A stretch of DNA of 64,000 nucleotides from positions 1 to 64,000 of the forward strand of contig NZ_WXFG01000008.1 of NCBI RefSeq assembly GCF_009881055.1, in the 5' to 3' direction. The stretch's first letter is position 1. The number at the start of each line of letters is the position of its first letter. This stretch comes from Peptoclostridium sp. GTDB lineage: Bacteria; Bacillota; Clostridia; Peptostreptococcales; Peptostreptococcaceae. Positions 34,966 through 61,384 of the stretch are shown in pieces. Position numbers and translations under genes: made by a program. The notes under the pieces are model-generated. The model had not been told where the DNA came from. It saw only the letters and a program-made list of their open reading frames with translations, and ran no database searches.

Positions 34966-36159
34966 TTACTCTATTATAGAAGCAACTACTCCTGCTCCTA
35001 CTGTTCTTCCGCCTTCTCTTATCGCGAATCTTAGTCCCTCTTCTATTGCTATTGGTGCTATTAGCTCAACTTCCATAGCTATGTTGTCTCCTGGCATTAC
35101 CATCTCTACGCCTTCTGGTAGTCCGATTGATCCTGTTATGTCTGTTGTTCTGAAGTAGAACTGAGGTCTGTATCCGTTGAAGAATGGAGTGTGTCTTCCG
35201 CCCTCTTCCTTCTTAAGTACGTATACCTCTGATGTGAATTTTGTGTGCGGCTTTATTGTGCCTGGCTTAGCTAGTACCTGGCCTCTTTCTATCTCGTCTC
35301 TTTGTACTCCTCTTAGAAGCACTCCTATGTTGTCTCCTGCTTGTGCCTCATCAAGAAGCTTTCTGAACATCTCTACGCCTGTTACTATTACTTTTCTTGG
35401 CTCTTCTGATAGTCCAACTATTTCTACTTCGTCTTGTACTTTTACTATTCCTCTTTCCACTCTTCCTGTTGCAACTGTTCCTCTTCCTGTTATAGAGAAT
35501 ACGTCCTCTACTGGCATTAGGAATGGCTTATCTATTGCTCTTTCTGGCTGTGGAATGTAGCTGTCTATAGCTTCGAATAGCTCTATTATTGCATCTCCCC
35601 ACTTGCTGCTTGGATCTTCTAGTGCTCTTAGCGCTGATCCTTTTATTATTGGAGTGTCATCTCCTGGGAAGTCATACTCGCTTAGCAGGTCTCTTATTTC
35701 CATCTCTACTAGCTCAAGAAGCTCTTCGTCATCTACCATGTCGCACTTGTTCATGAATACCACGATGTATGGTACTCCAACCTGTCTTGATAGTAGTATG
35801 TGCTCTCTTGTTTGTGGCATTGGACCGTCTGCTGCAGATACAACTAGTATCGCTCCGTCCATTTGTGCCGCTCCTGTTATCATGTTCTTAACGTAGTCGG
35901 CGTGTCCTGGGCAGTCAACGTGCGCGTAGTGTCTGTTTGGTGTCTCATACTCTACGTGTGATGTTGATATTGTGATTCCTCTTTCTCTTTCCTCTGGTGC
36001 CTTGTCTATGTTTGCAAAGTCTACTGCTTCACCTGTTCCGTATCTTGAGTGCAGTGTGTATGTTATTGCTGCTGTTAGTGTTGTCTTACCGTGGTCAACG
36101 TGTCCTATTGTTCCGATGTTAACGTGTGGTTTGCTTCTTTCAAATTTAGCTTTTGCCAT
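34966..36159 (-). CDS. tuf: Elongation factor Tu (copy 1, str operon)
   Basis: EF-Tu delivers aminoacyl-tRNA to the ribosome. The 397-residue protein has G1 [10 protein letters not shown]2 RGITI, G3 DCPGHADY and G4 NKCD, then the two beta-barrel domains. It is the last gene of rpsL-rpsG-fusA-tuf. The protein equals the copy at 50972 residue for residue, and the DNA appears the same from 34914 to 36176. AGGAGG lies just upstream of the ATG and is part of the duplicated block. Confidence 0.98.
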
Positions 36160-50971: not shown

Positions 50972-52165
50972 TTACTCTATTATAGAAGCAACTACTCCTG
51001 CTCCTACTGTTCTTCCGCCTTCTCTTATCGCGAATCTTAGTCCCTCTTCTATTGCTATTGGTGCTATTAGCTCAACTTCCATAGCTATGTTGTCTCCTGG
51101 CATTACCATCTCTACGCCTTCTGGTAGTCCGATTGATCCTGTTATGTCTGTTGTTCTGAAGTAGAACTGAGGTCTGTATCCGTTGAAGAATGGAGTGTGT
51201 CTTCCGCCCTCTTCCTTCTTAAGTACGTATACCTCTGATGTGAATTTTGTGTGCGGCTTTATTGTGCCTGGCTTAGCTAGTACCTGGCCTCTTTCTATCT
51301 CGTCTCTTTGTACTCCTCTTAGAAGCACTCCTATGTTGTCTCCTGCTTGTGCCTCATCAAGAAGCTTTCTGAACATCTCTACGCCTGTTACTATTACTTT
51401 TCTTGGCTCTTCTGATAGTCCAACTATTTCTACTTCGTCTTGTACTTTTACTATTCCTCTTTCCACTCTTCCTGTTGCAACTGTTCCTCTTCCTGTTATA
51501 GAGAATACGTCCTCTACTGGCATTAGGAATGGCTTATCTATTGCTCTTTCTGGCTGTGGAATGTAGCTGTCTATAGCTTCGAATAGCTCTATTATTGCAT
51601 CTCCCCACTTGCTGCTTGGATCTTCTAGTGCTCTTAGCGCTGATCCTTTTATTATTGGAGTGTCATCTCCTGGGAAGTCATACTCGCTTAGCAGGTCTCT
51701 TATTTCCATCTCTACTAGCTCAAGAAGCTCTTCGTCATCTACCATGTCGCACTTGTTCATGAATACCACGATGTATGGTACTCCAACCTGTCTTGATAGT
51801 AGTATGTGCTCTCTTGTTTGTGGCATTGGACCGTCTGCTGCAGATACAACTAGTATCGCTCCGTCCATTTGTGCCGCTCCTGTTATCATGTTCTTAACGT
51901 AGTCGGCGTGTCCTGGGCAGTCAACGTGCGCGTAGTGTCTGTTTGGTGTCTCATACTCTACGTGTGATGTTGATATTGTGATTCCTCTTTCTCTTTCCTC
52001 TGGTGCCTTGTCTATGTTTGCAAAGTCTACTGCTTCACCTGTTCCGTATCTTGAGTGCAGTGTGTATGTTATTGCTGCTGTTAGTGTTGTCTTACCGTGG
52101 TCAACGTGTCCTATTGTTCCGATGTTAACGTGTGGTTTGCTTCTTTCAAATTTAGCTTTTGCCAT
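50972..52165 (-). CDS. tuf: Elongation factor Tu (copy 2, downstream of tRNA-Thr)
   Basis: This 397-residue EF-Tu is identical to the copy at 34966. The G motifs [22 protein letters not shown] and NKCD are present. It sits behind a tRNA-Thr gene with its own promoter and ahead of rpmG-secE-nusG, the arrangement of E. coli tufB. The apparent DNA identity over about 1.26 kb, including the ribosome-binding site and terminator, points to ongoing gene conversion. Confidence 0.98.
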
Positions 52166-56403: not shown

Positions 56404-56444
56404 CAAAGCCTCCTGGAACAGATAGTCCCAAGAGGCTTGTGGTT
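56404..56444 (-). terminator. Hairpin terminator after gltX
   Basis: A 14-bp stem with G-U pairs (AAGCCTCTTGGGAC / GTTCCAGGAGGCTT) overlaps the gltX stop codon region. The following T content is moderate (TGCTTTGTTTG), so termination may be partial. Confidence 0.55.
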
Positions 56445-57919
56445 TATATGAGATTTTGCTTAACGTATTCTATTCTTTTTAGAACCCTCTCCTTGCCGAG
56501 TATCTCTACAACGTGAGGAATCTCAGGTCCGTGCATTTGTCCTGTTAAAGCTACTCTTGTTCCCATGAAAAGATTCTTGCCCTTTATGCCATATTCCTTT
56601 TGAATCTCCTTGAACATTGCGCTTACAAAATCACTGCTCACTTCATCAGTTGCTTTTATCTTTTCCTCTAGCGCGCCAATCAGTGCAGGCATGTGCTCAA
56701 GCTTCAAAAACTCTTGAACCTCTTCACCTTCAGGCTTTATTTCATCTCCAAAGAATATTGCAATCTTTTCAGGAAGCTGCGCCATGTATTGCAGACCTTC
56801 CTTCACAATTGAGATTATCTTTACGAGCTTGACTCTGTCAAGCGCTTCCCCGTTTAGTATGCCCGCATCCTCAAGGAAAGGCACTGCCAAGTCAGCCAGA
56901 TATTCGTCATCCGCTTCCTTCATGTAGTGCTGGTTGATCCAGTTGAGCTTGCTTGTGTCGAACACTCCACCGCTTCTTGAAACTCTCTCAATCGAGAAAG
57001 CTTCTATTAGCTCCTGCATCGAGAAAATCTCCCTGTTGTCTTCAGGCGACCATCCCACAAGCGCAATGTAATTCACAAGACCCTGAGGCAGGTATCCCTT
57101 TTTTTCAAAGTCCTCTACAGCAACATCGCCCTGTCTCTTGCTGAGCTTTTTCTTTTCTGAGTTTAGAATATTTGGAAGGTGCACGAAAGTAGGCGCCTCC
57201 CACCCGAAAACCTCATACATGTATACGTGCTTAGGCGTTGAGGCTATCCACTCTTCGCCTCTTATTACGTGTGTTATCTTCATAAGGTGGTCGTCTACCA
57301 CAACGGCAAAGTGATAAGTTGGGAAACCGTCGCTTTTTATGAGAACCTGGTCGTCCAGATCAGCAGTGTTCATGCTTACTCTTCCCCTTACCATGTCGTC
57401 GAAAACTATCTCGTGGTTGGCCGGAAACTTGAGCCTTATGACATAGTCCTCGCCTGCGGCTATCCTCTTTTCAGCCTCCTCGCGCGAGAGTCCTCTGCAG
57501 TATCCGTCGTATCTTGGAATCTTGCCTTCCGCCCTTTGAATCTCCCTTAGTGTGTCTAGCCTGTCCTTTGAGCAGAAGCAGTAATATGCATGTCCCTTGT
57601 CAAGAAGCTCGTCCACGTATTTTTTGTATATGTCCAGCCTCTGCGACTGCATGTAAGGGCCGTATTCGCCCTTTTGAGAGAGCTTTCCGTTCTCGTCAAG
57701 GCAGACTCCTTCGTCATGCTCTATGCCGGCCCAGCTCATGGCGCTGAGCATGCCCTCTATAGCTCCCTCAACATATCTGGTCCTGTCTGTATCCTCGACC
57801 CTGAGTATATACTCTCCGCCATGCTTTTTGGCGAACAGATAGTTGTAAAGGGCCGTTCTTAGGCTTCCTATGTGTACAAATCCCGTAGGACTTGGCGCAA
57901 ATCTAACTCTAACACTCAT
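56444..57919 (-). CDS. gltX: Glutamyl-tRNA synthetase
   Basis: The 491-residue class I enzyme has [21 protein letters not shown] and KLSKRQGD, with a C-terminal anticodon domain. Firmicute GluRS is usually non-discriminating, charging tRNA-Gln for amidation by GatCAB; the discriminating residue was not analysed. It starts at ATG with AGGAGG upstream and has its own candidate promoter. It lies behind the ProRS-like gene. Confidence 0.97.
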
Positions 57920-58009: not shown

Positions 58010-59548
58010 CTAATACAGCTTTTCTAAAAGCTCCTCTAGCGCTGCTTCGCATGATGTGCCGCTTTTCCGGTCTCTCACTTCAACAAGTCCCTGGCTTGCC
58101 AGCTTTCCTGCAACAATTACACCTCTTACTCCCAAAAGCTCACAGTCTATAAACTTGGAGCCTATGCGCTCGCTTCTGTCATCAAGCAGTGCGCTTCTGC
58201 CGCTTTCGAGGATGAGCCTGTATGCATCCTCAGCAAGCTGCAGCTCCTCAGGCTTTTTGACGTTGCCCGCTATTACATAGTATTCAAACGGAGAAAATAC
58301 CGCCGGCCATACTATCGCCCCCGACTCGTCCATATTCTCTTCGGCTATGGCCGACATGAGCCTCTCCACGCATATCCTGACGCTTACGCTCCACAGCCTT
58401 TTTTCCCTTGAATTCTCATCAAGGTAAGTGCCTTTAAGCTCCTTTATTTCTATGCTTGCTATCTCGCTCCCGTTTAGCGCTTCGAGCGTGCCTGCATCGG
58501 CAGGGCATGCGTCGCCGGGCCTTGCCTCTTTGAATACGCCTATAGCGTCCGGCTTGAAGTCTCTGCCGCAGGTGACATTCTTTATGTGGTAGTCTGTTCT
58601 GTTGGCTCCGCATACTGAGTTTTTCATGTTGAGAACCTCTTCGTCACAAAGCAGCAAATCAGCTTTCAGTCCTATTGGTCCTGCAAAGCCTATGCCGGCC
58701 CCTGTAGCTTTCATGACCGCATCTTCGCTTGCCATTTTAATTTCTTCCGGTTCCATTCCAATATGCCGAGCAAGCAGCCCTATGCTTATGTTCCTGTCAC
58801 CTCTAAGGAGCACTGCAACTATCTTTTCTCCGACCTCGAATATGAGCGTCTTTATGAAGCTCTTTGCGGAGGCTCCGAAGAACTCTTCAAGCTGCGCAAT
58901 AGTGCCGACAGACGGAGTGTGGATATACTCCGTCGCCAGAAGCTCCTCGCTTCCCTCATATTTTTGTGCGCCAGATTTTATATATGCGGCATCGCCGCCA
59001 AAGCCACAGCTATCGCACTTTAAAAACTGCTTTAGAGGAAGCTTTGATTCCCATACAAGGCTCATCATATCCTTGGAATCCAACGGCTGCAGCTTTATTC
59101 CAAGCTCGCTCCCAAGTCCCCTAAGGGCTTCTGCCAGCTCGCGCCTTATCTGCGTTGCGGACTGCTCTTCTGCAAATGCAGTGAACACAAGACTTGTAAG
59201 CTGCCTTGGATTAAAGAGGCCTTCCTTGAACTTGTAGTCATCATTTCCAGATGCAGCCGCATGAAAGAGCTTGAGCGGCAACTGCTTGTAGGATTTGAGT
59301 TCCTGCTGGTACATTGCCATGCATTCCCTTTCTCCCCCTGCCACCTTGAACTCCATAAAATCGCGCATGCGCTCTACTATAGAGTCCTGAAGTTTTTTTG
59401 CATATAATGCGCCCATTGGCGAATAGCACATATTCCCCTCTTCAGAGAGCTTTACAAGCCCGCTTCTATACAACAGCTGAGTCGAGCGGAACTGAACATC
59501 GTATGGCATGCTCTTGTATGTCTTTGTGTAAAAACTGCCCAGCCTCAT
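58010..59548 (-). CDS. Degenerate ProRS-like protein with intact INS (YbaK-type) editing domain
   Basis: This 512-residue relative of bacterial-type ProRS (usually about 570) is altered in its catalytic core. After YKQLPLKLF (residues 87-95) the class II motif 2 region, normally FRDE...RPRFG..RSREF, is replaced by an unrelated charged and helical stretch, with no fRxE. The motif 3 glycines (GIGVTR) read RICVER. The LLMP..QPA stretch around motif 1 is also missing. In contrast the CDSC turn (178-181) is kept. The INS editing domain (about 210-345) is complete: the editing Lys in FIKTLIF (about 233), GAGIGFAGPIG, and the His in GANRTDYHIKNVT (about 321) are in place. A C-terminal anticodon-binding-like domain (LLDDRSERIGSKFIDCELLGV) is also kept. 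There are no stops or frameshifts. AGGAGG lies 9 nt before the ATG. The most likely role is trans-editing of mischarged tRNA-Pro; a regulatory or decaying gene is the alternative. Confidence 0.85.
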   Translation of the reverse strand: MRLGSFYTKTYKSMPYDVQFRSTQLLYRSGLVKLSEEGNMCYSPMGALYAKKLQDSIVERMRDFMEFKVAGGERECMAMYQQELKSYKQLPLKLFHAAASGNDDYKFKEGLFNPRQLTSLVFTAFAEEQSATQIRRELAEALRGLGSELGIKLQPLDSKDMMSLVWESKLPLKQFLKCDSCGFGGDAAYIKSGAQKYEGSEELLATEYIHTPSVGTIAQLEEFFGASAKSFIKTLIFEVGEKIVAVLLRGDRNISIGLLARHIGMEPEEIKMASEDAVMKATGAGIGFAGPIGLKADLLLCDEEVLNMKNSVCGANRTDYHIKNVTCGRDFKPDAIGVFKEARPGDACPADAGTLEALNGSEIASIEIKELKGTYLDENSREKRLWSVSVRICVERLMSAIAEENMDESGAIVWPAVFSPFEYYVIAGNVKKPEELQLAEDAYRLILESGRSALLDDRSERIGSKFIDCELLGVRGVIVAGKLASQGLVEVRDRKSGTSCEAALEELLEKLY

Positions 59549-59599
59549 AAAATCATCCCTCCTGGTCATAATGCCGACGCATTGCCTCCCATGATTTTA

Positions 59600-61048
59600 T
59601 TAATATGCTTTTGCCAGATATACCATTTTGTCAGCTTTTTCTCCGCAGCATATGCATCTGTCTGATATCTGCTCCTGCTCGAAAGGCATGCATCTGATTG
59701 TTGCTCCCGTCTCTTCCTTTATCTTGTCCTCGCATGCTCTGTCGCCGCACCACATAGCCTTGACAAAGCCCGGATTTTCCTCGAGCACCTTCTTGAGTTC
59801 GTCCATATCATTTGCCACACTTGTCTTTTCTTCTCTCATCCTAAGAGCATTTGCCAGCATGCTAACATGCACATCGTCAAGCAGACCTTTTATACTTTCA
59901 GTTATATTCTCGAGCGCAAGCTGGCTCTTTTCCAGGTTGTCCCTTCTGCACACTGTAGCCTGACCCTTTTCTATGTCTTTAGGCCCTATTTCTAGTCTTA
60001 CAGGCACGCCTTTCATTTCCCACTCATTGAATTTCCAGCCTGGGCTGTAGTTAGCTCTGTCATCGACCTGGACTCTGATTCCCGCAGCCTTTAGTTCGTC
60101 AAACACACGGTCTACAGTCTCCATCACGTTGCCCTTGTGAGCAGCTATTGGCACTATAACAACCTGTATTGGAGCCAGTCTCGGAGGCAGCACAAGTCCT
60201 CTGTTGTCGCCGTGAACCATTATAACTCCGCCTATTAGCCTTGTTGATATCCCCCACGATGTGTGGTATGGATTGGCAAGATTGCCGTCCCTGTCCGAAT
60301 ACTGTATTTCAAATGCCTTCGAGAAATGCTGGCCAAGGAAGTGACTGGTTCCGGACTGGAGTGCCTTTCCGTCATGCATTAGTGCCTCTATTGTATATGT
60401 TGCCTCGGCTCCCGCAAACTTTTCCTTGTCGCTTTTTCTTCCGCATACTACAGGTATTGCGAGAAGCTCCTCGCAAAGCTCCTTGTATATACCAAGCATC
60501 TGAAGCGTTTCTTGCTGAGCCTCTTCATAGGTTTCGTGAAGCGTGTGGCCTTCCTGCCAGAGGAATTCAGAGGTCCTGAGGAATGGCCTTGTGCTTTTTT
60601 CCCATCTTACAACGGAGCACCACTGGTTGTAAAGGTATGGCAGATCTCTGTATGAATTTAGCCACTTGGCGTACATGTGACATATTATAGTCTCCGATGT
60701 AGGCCTTACGCAAAGCCTCTCGCCAAGCTCCTCTTCTCCGCCGTGAGTAACCCATGCCACCTCTGGAGCGAAACCTTCAACGTGCTCCTCCTCCTTCTTC
60801 AGAAGGCTCTCTGGTATAAGCAGCGGGAAGTAGCAGTTCTTGTGACCAGTCTCCTTGAATCTTCTGTCTGCATACTGCTGTATACCTTCCCAAAGTGCGT
60901 AGCCGTAAGGCTTTATTACCATGAAGCCCTTCACCGGCGAGTAGTCTACCAGGTCAGTCTTTGTTATAACGTCAGTGTACCATCTTGGAAAATCGACCTC
61001 CATAGGCGTTATGTCTTCAACAAACTGCTTTTCATTCTTCTTGCTCAT
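59600..61048 (-). CDS. proS: Prolyl-tRNA synthetase, archaeal/eukaryotic type (no INS domain)
   Basis: The 482-residue class II enzyme has intact motifs: [16 protein letters not shown] near motif 1, [22 protein letters not shown] (motif 2) and [18 protein letters not shown] (motif 3). The C-terminal anticodon domain and zinc-like domain carry [10 protein letters not shown] and [11 protein letters not shown], ending in Tyr. This form lacks the INS insertion, so by itself it cannot clear Ala-tRNA-Pro by that domain. It is the first gene of a proline T-box operon together with the ProRS-like gene. Confidence 0.97.
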
Positions 61049-61110: not shown

Positions 61111-61345
61111 AAAAGCTGCCCATCTCAAAAAATAGAGACGAACAGCCCGGTTCGCGGTACCACTCTAATTGGCGCAGCCAAAGCTACACCCTCTTTTTCG
61201 ACTTAACGCGTCTTCCACGGGATTGCCTACTGCTTTCAACAATCCAGCTCCGGGGCGGGTTCGAAAGGAGCACTCCTGAAAGCCTTTCACCAAGCGGCCT
61301 TCTCTCTTTAAAGCTCTGCCTTTGTACTATTCCCCTTCAGTGCTT
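61111..61345 (-). promoter_or_regulatory. T-box riboswitch (proline specifier) of proS
   Basis: The minus-strand leader has an AGTA element, the AGAGAG bulge, the GGTGAAAG distal loop, the T-box AGAGTGGTACCGCG (complement of 61153-61166), and a 12-bp terminator stem (61115-61126 with 61135-61146, including G-U pairs) followed by UUUUAUU. The specifier is read as CCC at 61257-61259, again followed by GCCCC as in the metG T-box. Uncharged tRNA-Pro should switch on proS and the editing-domain gene together. Confidence 0.93.
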
Positions 61346-61355
61346 TTGATGCTTA

Positions 61356-61384
61356 ATTATACATTAAAACTTTCTGTGTGTCAA
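61356..61384 (-). promoter_or_regulatory. Full-consensus promoter of the proS operon
   Basis: TTGACA (61379-61384), 17 bp, TATAAT (61356-61361) on the minus strand, with the -35 inside the 3' end of ispF. A strong promoter in front of a T-box places control on the riboswitch. Confidence 0.88.

Follow-up and report, generated by a model that had tools for sequence, protein, structure and literature searches.

A degenerate prolyl-tRNA synthetase paralog of Peptoclostridium that keeps its editing domain: a predicted trans-editing factor for tRNAPro

What can a paralog of prolyl-tRNA synthetase (ProRS) do once its synthetase motifs are gone, when the gene before it encodes an intact ProRS? The question is raised by an open reading frame on the minus strand, at positions 58010..59548 of the window, by which we mean the whole stretch of 64,000 nucleotides of Peptoclostridium sp. 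DNA that was analyzed. The original prediction was that this protein lost the synthetase motifs, kept the INS editing domain and clears mischarged tRNAPro in trans. We have practically no doubt that the observation itself, a ProRS paralog without synthetase motifs and with an editing domain, is real. Based on Pfam, equivalog models, a motif table, residue conservation and an AlphaFold model, we describe the product (512 aa) as an INS-ProRS paralog that is dead by sequence and is predicted to be a tRNAPro trans-editing factor. The mechanical reading frame starts at 59569 and codes for 519 aa, but the start at 59548, also chosen in the original prediction, is preferred because AGGAGG lies about 9 nt upstream of it (59558-59563, within a Shine-Dalgarno sequence AGGAGGG at 59557..59563, minus strand) and the homologs begin at the same Met. 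Residue numbers follow the 519-aa translation (P0001); subtracting 7 gives the numbering used in the original prediction, so that K240 is K233 and H328 is H321.

Loss in the synthetase core and retention of the INS and anticodon-binding domains

The paralog aligns end to end with the bacterial INS-containing ProRSs (proS_fam_II; phmmer E = 2.5e-58 against the Enterococcus faecalis enzyme, 2j3l), with which it shares full-length homology, the same fold and conserved INS and anticodon-binding domains (ABD). It differs from them in lacking the TXE loop, motif 2 and motif 3, and the active enzymes are longer by about 50-60 residues. Its class II core domain stays under the Pfam cut-off (20.8 vs 29.3), and neither equivalog model for a functional bacterial ProRS is satisfied (NF006625, 250.7 bits against a cut-off of 558; TIGR00409, 175.1 against 306.7). 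The alignment shows a deletion of about 30 residues that runs to the end of the proline-binding TXE loop (GPTHEE), a loss that the original prediction did not remark on. Motif 2, FRDE..R..G..R.REF in active enzymes, reads NDDYKFKEGLFNPRQL (residues 102-132, 59174..59266, minus strand), and motif 3 has changed from GCYGIGVER to SVRICVER (residues 394-411, 58337..58390, minus strand), so that the replacement of motif 2 and the loss of the motif 3 glycines, both noted originally, are borne out. When functional ProRSs are defined by the TXE loop, motif 2 fRxE/R.REF and motif 3 GIG..R, the paralog fails on every count. From these losses we infer that it is almost certainly unable to aminoacylate tRNAPro.

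The editing domain presents the opposite picture. The INS domain (PF04073, residues 218-333, 58571..58918, minus strand) scores 73.2 bits against a cut-off of 25.5 and contains K240 (58850-58852), G257, GFAGP, D309, GAN and H328 (58586-58588). The domain score, the catalytic Lys, the GxxxP loop and the His that characterize the INS superfamily are thus all in place, and the intact domain with its key Lys and His had been correctly recognized. The ABD (PF03129, HGTP_anticodon, residues 432-518, 58016..58276, minus strand) is also intact and over its cut-off with 42 bits. The window paralog further carries CxxC and CxxD (C185, C188, C355 and D358; 59006-59017 and 58496-58507); in active enzymes a CxxC...CxxC pair flanks INS, and most of the dead paralogs retain it. 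The pair is perhaps a metal-binding hinge.

To quantify this selective erosion, we took the columns conserved in at least 95% of 22 active INS-ProRSs of the order and compared them with 24 dead paralogs. On average, the paralogs retained 29% of these columns in the N-terminal catalytic segment and 32% in the motif 3 segment, against 88% in INS and 87% in the ABD. The corresponding counts for the window paralog are 20 of 92, 9 of 26, 19 of 23 and 22 of 27. Nine residues (K240, G257, G294, G297, D309, G321, N323, H328 and D337) are found in 100% of the 24 divergent paralogs, and the K, G..GP and H of the editing site are likewise 100% conserved. The window protein shares 31-78% identity with the copies of its relatives.

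Could the gene nevertheless be a decaying, functionless relic that is kept for a time beside a second ProRS? The synthetase motifs are gone, the copy in one genome (L051, G058) is interrupted in the ABD by an in-frame stop, and the whole-gene dN/dS of 0.15, measured against a same-genus copy with 78% identity, exceeds that of the family I ProRS (0.019). However, dN/dS within INS is 0.083, the nine INS positions do not vary, the frames are open across many genera (24 of 25 surveyed copies reach the C-terminus) and the catalytic and editing parts have eroded at very different rates. The relic explanation is already contradicted by this selective constraint and retains only a negligible share of our belief; the pseudogene reading was rejected on the dN/dS values and on the selective erosion with a conserved INS. 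The expectation that the frame is undisturbed and under selection held up in the dN/dS comparison that had been proposed. Regarding the copy with the stop, its genome also has ProXp-ala, and a same-genus genome (G047) has no paralog; both fit loss of the gene where it is redundant.

Structural modeling, also proposed originally, gave a confident AlphaFold model (pLDDT 88.6, pTM 0.84) whose best PDB matches are INS-ProRSs, with the E. faecalis ProRS 2j3l at the top (TM 0.86). On the model, the dead catalytic core would so persist as a scaffold. A conserved ABD and INS together with a core kept as a fold, but not as an active site, is the pattern needed by a ProRS reduced to an editor. A non-catalytic partner or tRNA chaperone, which would bind tRNAPro or the INS-less ProRS and aid aminoacylation, might also retain the full ProRS scaffold and the ABD. 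This alternative would leave unexplained both the invariant INS catalytic residues and the association with an INS-less ProRS, and we give it very little credit.

Operon context and control by proline

The paralog starts 51 nt past the stop codon of an intact gene for an archaeal-type ProRS (proS_fam_I, 59600..61048, minus strand), its predicted partner, which scores 621.8 bits with TIGR00408 (cut-off 437) and has no PF04073 domain. This agrees with the original description of the preceding gene as an active ProRS of the INS-less type. Upstream of it we located, all on the minus strand, a T-box leader (RF00230, 131.8 bits; 61131..61349) with a terminator hairpin visible in the sequence (61113..61148) and, just upstream of the leader, a sigma-70-like promoter, TTGACA-17-TATAAT, with 12 of 12 matches (61356..61384). 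The specifier, read by eye, is CCC (Pro) followed by G; the same position, also read by eye, is CCC, CCA or CCT in 19 related loci where a T-box precedes a ProRS gene. As inferred from spacing and architecture, the family I proS and the paralog probably form one transcription unit under proline control. The next gene is gltX (56444..57919, minus strand; from the list of reading frames, annotated by eye), given here for context only. Elsewhere in the window, two minus-strand reading frames code for 397 aa each (34966-36159 and 50972-52165). By its sequence, the latter encodes EF-Tu; the former is likely a second tuf copy, judged by length alone.

A Pro T-box operon would also suit a regulator akin to PrdX or to other regulators derived from synthetases, with the INS/ABD scaffold as a sensor of proline or of (mis)charged tRNAPro that acts on gene expression or on proline metabolism. 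Synthetase paralogs have turned into regulators elsewhere, and many paralog genomes have a proline reductase. The original prediction had kept PrdX-like proline sensing as a second possibility. The window genome, though, has no match to PrdA at E <= 1e-60, so that the use of proline reductase expected with a PrdX-like protein is not met; PrdA is also absent from two other paralog genomes (G040 and G057) and is not markedly commoner in paralog genomes than in others. Neither Pfam nor the AlphaFold model gives any sign of an added DNA-binding or signaling domain, and all INS catalytic residues are invariant, while a sensor need not keep them. The possibility is weakened by these observations, and we consider a regulatory role improbable here.

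Other editing factors and distribution of the paralog

INS-less ProRSs are usually accompanied by a freestanding ProXp-ala. We searched for it with a profile (A1), one member of which matches the Caulobacter crescentus structure 5vxb, and found none in the window genome. The paralog itself does not qualify as ProXp-ala, as it has several domains and the profile has no match in this genome. The only other INS homolog of the genome (contig C22) matches APE2540, 2cx5 and YbaK-type structures, not ProXp-ala, for which reason we rejected the possibility that the genome already has ProXp-ala. The structure 2cx5 is that of ProXp-x, which is reported to clear Abu-tRNA and, weakly, Ala-tRNAPro (PMC11295145), and the retention of this ProXp-x-related protein in the window genome counts against the trans-editing reading.

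We surveyed 218 genomes of the order to which the window genome belongs. A dead INS-ProRS paralog is present in 25 of them. A single-sequence scan of the genome contigs returned no relatives; an alignment scan then gave named carriers, which include Peptoclostridium litorale, Tepidibacter formicigenes, T. thalassicus and T. mesophilus, together with metagenome-assembled Marinisporobacter and Alkaliphilus genomes. A family I ProRS is encoded in all 25 genomes and an active INS-ProRS in none of them, a co-occurrence that is partly necessary because a cell needs one working ProRS. The companion expected of an editor in trans, a synthetase for the same tRNA without an editing domain, is thus available in 25 of 25 genomes and, in the window, is the adjacent family I ProRS. 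Among the 92 genomes with family I as the only active ProRS, ProXp-ala was present in 7 of 25 with the paralog and in 50 of 67 without it (absent from 18 and 17, respectively; Fisher p = 7e-5). Counted by genus, the figures were 6 of 17 and 29 of 38 (p = 0.006). A control on the family I tree left only 6 independent pairs; the direction agrees (2.5 vs 0.5), but the test is underpowered and not significant. Replacement of ProXp-ala by the paralog is therefore likely but not shown. The same counts also bear against the trans-editing reading. Because seven paralog genomes have ProXp-ala as well, and 17 of the 67 other genomes with an INS-less ProRS have neither editor, the function cannot be indispensable; the stop in the G058 copy weighs in the same direction. 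Two nearly complete genomes (G037 and G042) have only the INS-less ProRS and no INS-superfamily domain that we could find, and how they clear Ala-tRNAPro is unexplained.

In five genomes (G006, G026, G022, G053 and G057), we found no INS-superfamily domain apart from that of the paralog, which speaks for the paralog as the editor. These genomes therefore also lack YbaK, and a trans-editor with a different or wider substrate, for example Cys-, Abu- or Ser-tRNAPro or tRNAs for other amino acids, has to be weighed. Specificities vary within the INS superfamily (PMC11295145), and the window paralog departs from the active enzymes at 4 of the 23 INS columns that are strictly conserved. On the other hand, the pocket residues are those of the Ala-specific bacterial INS, and the conservation of the ABD points to tRNAPro. 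We regard a shifted or widened substrate range as unlikely, though it deserves more weight than any other alternative, and Ala as the probable main substrate, by inference.

Did these paralogs arise once? A free tree of INS and ABD separates them into three groups, one of which sits within the active enzymes from its own family. Within the order, however, a single clade is not rejected (AU p = 0.22). Across the class, we found similar degenerate INS-ProRSs in five genomes, G299, G348 and G370 (family f31), G309 (f42) and G278 (f36). The INS and ABD residues persist in all five; four have a family I ProRS, encoded on a different contig or at a large distance, and four are without a clear ProXp-ala. 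Some loci depart from the pattern of the order. In G348 (88% complete), the degenerate INS-ProRS (L211) stands beside both an active INS-ProRS and a family I ProRS. In G278, an INS-less family II ProRS of 430 aa with intact motifs takes the place of the family I enzyme and lies about 15 kb from the degenerate INS-containing one (L209 and L210), which has 565 aa, FCDK in motif 2 and Lys for Arg in motif 3; this is a cat/ed-like pair within family II. Otherwise active-looking INS-ProRSs near a family I ProRS have GIE for GIG in motif 3 in Thermotalea metallivorans (L120/L140) and YEIG for YGIG in G023 (L018), changes that may mark the onset of such decay. We lean toward more than one origin of editing-only ProRS paralogs. 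From the three groups within the order, and f31, f36 and f42 in other parts of the class, we also somewhat favor the view that in Clostridia the division of ProRS into one protein for catalysis and one for editing has come about repeatedly and by convergence. The editing-only proteins would then make up a class of multi-domain trans-editing factors that read the anticodon, in contrast to the single-domain ProXp proteins.

Proposed mechanism and relation to known systems

The trans-editing reading is supported on the points that sequence can address: the paralog is conserved, its losses are confined to synthesis and it has an INS-less companion. The recurrence in several families, the lack of ProXp-ala in the window genome and the reliance of INS on the ABD for choosing its tRNA go beyond the original prediction. 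We hold it quite likely that the paralog edits mischarged tRNAPro in trans, an activity that is inferred and has not been measured. With good, if marginally lesser, confidence we propose, more specifically, that it is an editing-only ProRS (ProRS-ed) that clears Ala-tRNAPro for the neighboring INS-less ProRS; deacylation and tRNA binding in trans are both inferences. In the ancestral arrangement, an INS-less family I ProRS would have stood in tandem with a bacterial ProRS that carried INS; the two then specialized, the former keeping aminoacylation and the latter losing it. The paralog would grip tRNAPro through its ABD (G35/G36) and swing the CCA end into the INS pocket, where Ala-tRNAPro, and perhaps related small aminoacyl-tRNAs, misformed by the neighbor would be hydrolyzed. 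The proline T-box would raise both genes when charged tRNAPro is scarce. The INS of E. coli has no intrinsic recognition of tRNAPro, and its editing is limited to tRNAs that the ABD holds by G35/G36 of the anticodon (Das et al., PMC3973320). An editing-only ProRS would therefore need the ABD and the spacer geometry, since INS picks tRNAPro only through the ABD, and this dependence explains why the ABD has been retained.

A close likeness is with the ThrRS-cat/ThrRS-ed pair of some crenarchaea, in which a catalytic protein without an editing domain is likewise split from an editing-only relative that keeps the ABD; ThrRS-ed consists of an editing domain and an ABD (PMC11295145). The analogy, which the original prediction had drawn, is apt with regard to function, as a dead core, an intact editing domain with an ABD and an INS-less companion are all found here. 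It does not extend to descent, as the editing domain is the PF04073 INS and matches to ThrRS models are confined to the C-terminal part. Unlike the ThrRS pair, the system is bacterial, concerns proline with an unrelated editing domain, and has partners that stem from different ProRS families; moreover, the paralog, unlike ThrRS-ed, keeps the whole class II catalytic fold as a dead scaffold. With ProXp-ala it shares a homologous editing domain and the same predicted activity, a replacement for the INS function missing from the INS-less ProRS. ProXp-ala, however, is a single-domain protein that reads G72/A73 of the acceptor stem (Das et al., PMC3973320), whereas the paralog, with its ABD, is expected to read the anticodon. 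The original contrast with free-standing YbaK or ProXp is upheld as far as the domain is concerned, and a multi-domain trans-editor would be new because members of the superfamily other than INS itself are described as single-domain proteins in a 2024 review (PMC11295145).

We found no earlier description of an editing-only ProRS in the open-access literature, subscription papers being outside the scope of the search; within that literature, a division of labor between catalysis and editing is described for threonine and was not found for proline. Other aminoacyl-tRNA synthetase paralogs, such as HisZ, YadB (GluQ-RS) and EpmA, have taken on a new job. To our knowledge, none of the three is an editing enzyme.

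Automatic pipelines could label such paralogs proline--tRNA ligases, an annotation that would need correction, and counts of editing capacity based on ProXp-ala alone would miss them. How does recognition of the anticodon direct the INS site over a distance of 70 A? This question, raised in PMC3973320, could be tested with the paralog because editing is naturally uncoupled from synthesis in it. If our reading is true, these bacteria have a trans-editing factor with its own anticodon reader, which for proline would be the bacterial equivalent of the archaeal ThrRS-cat/ThrRS-ed pair.
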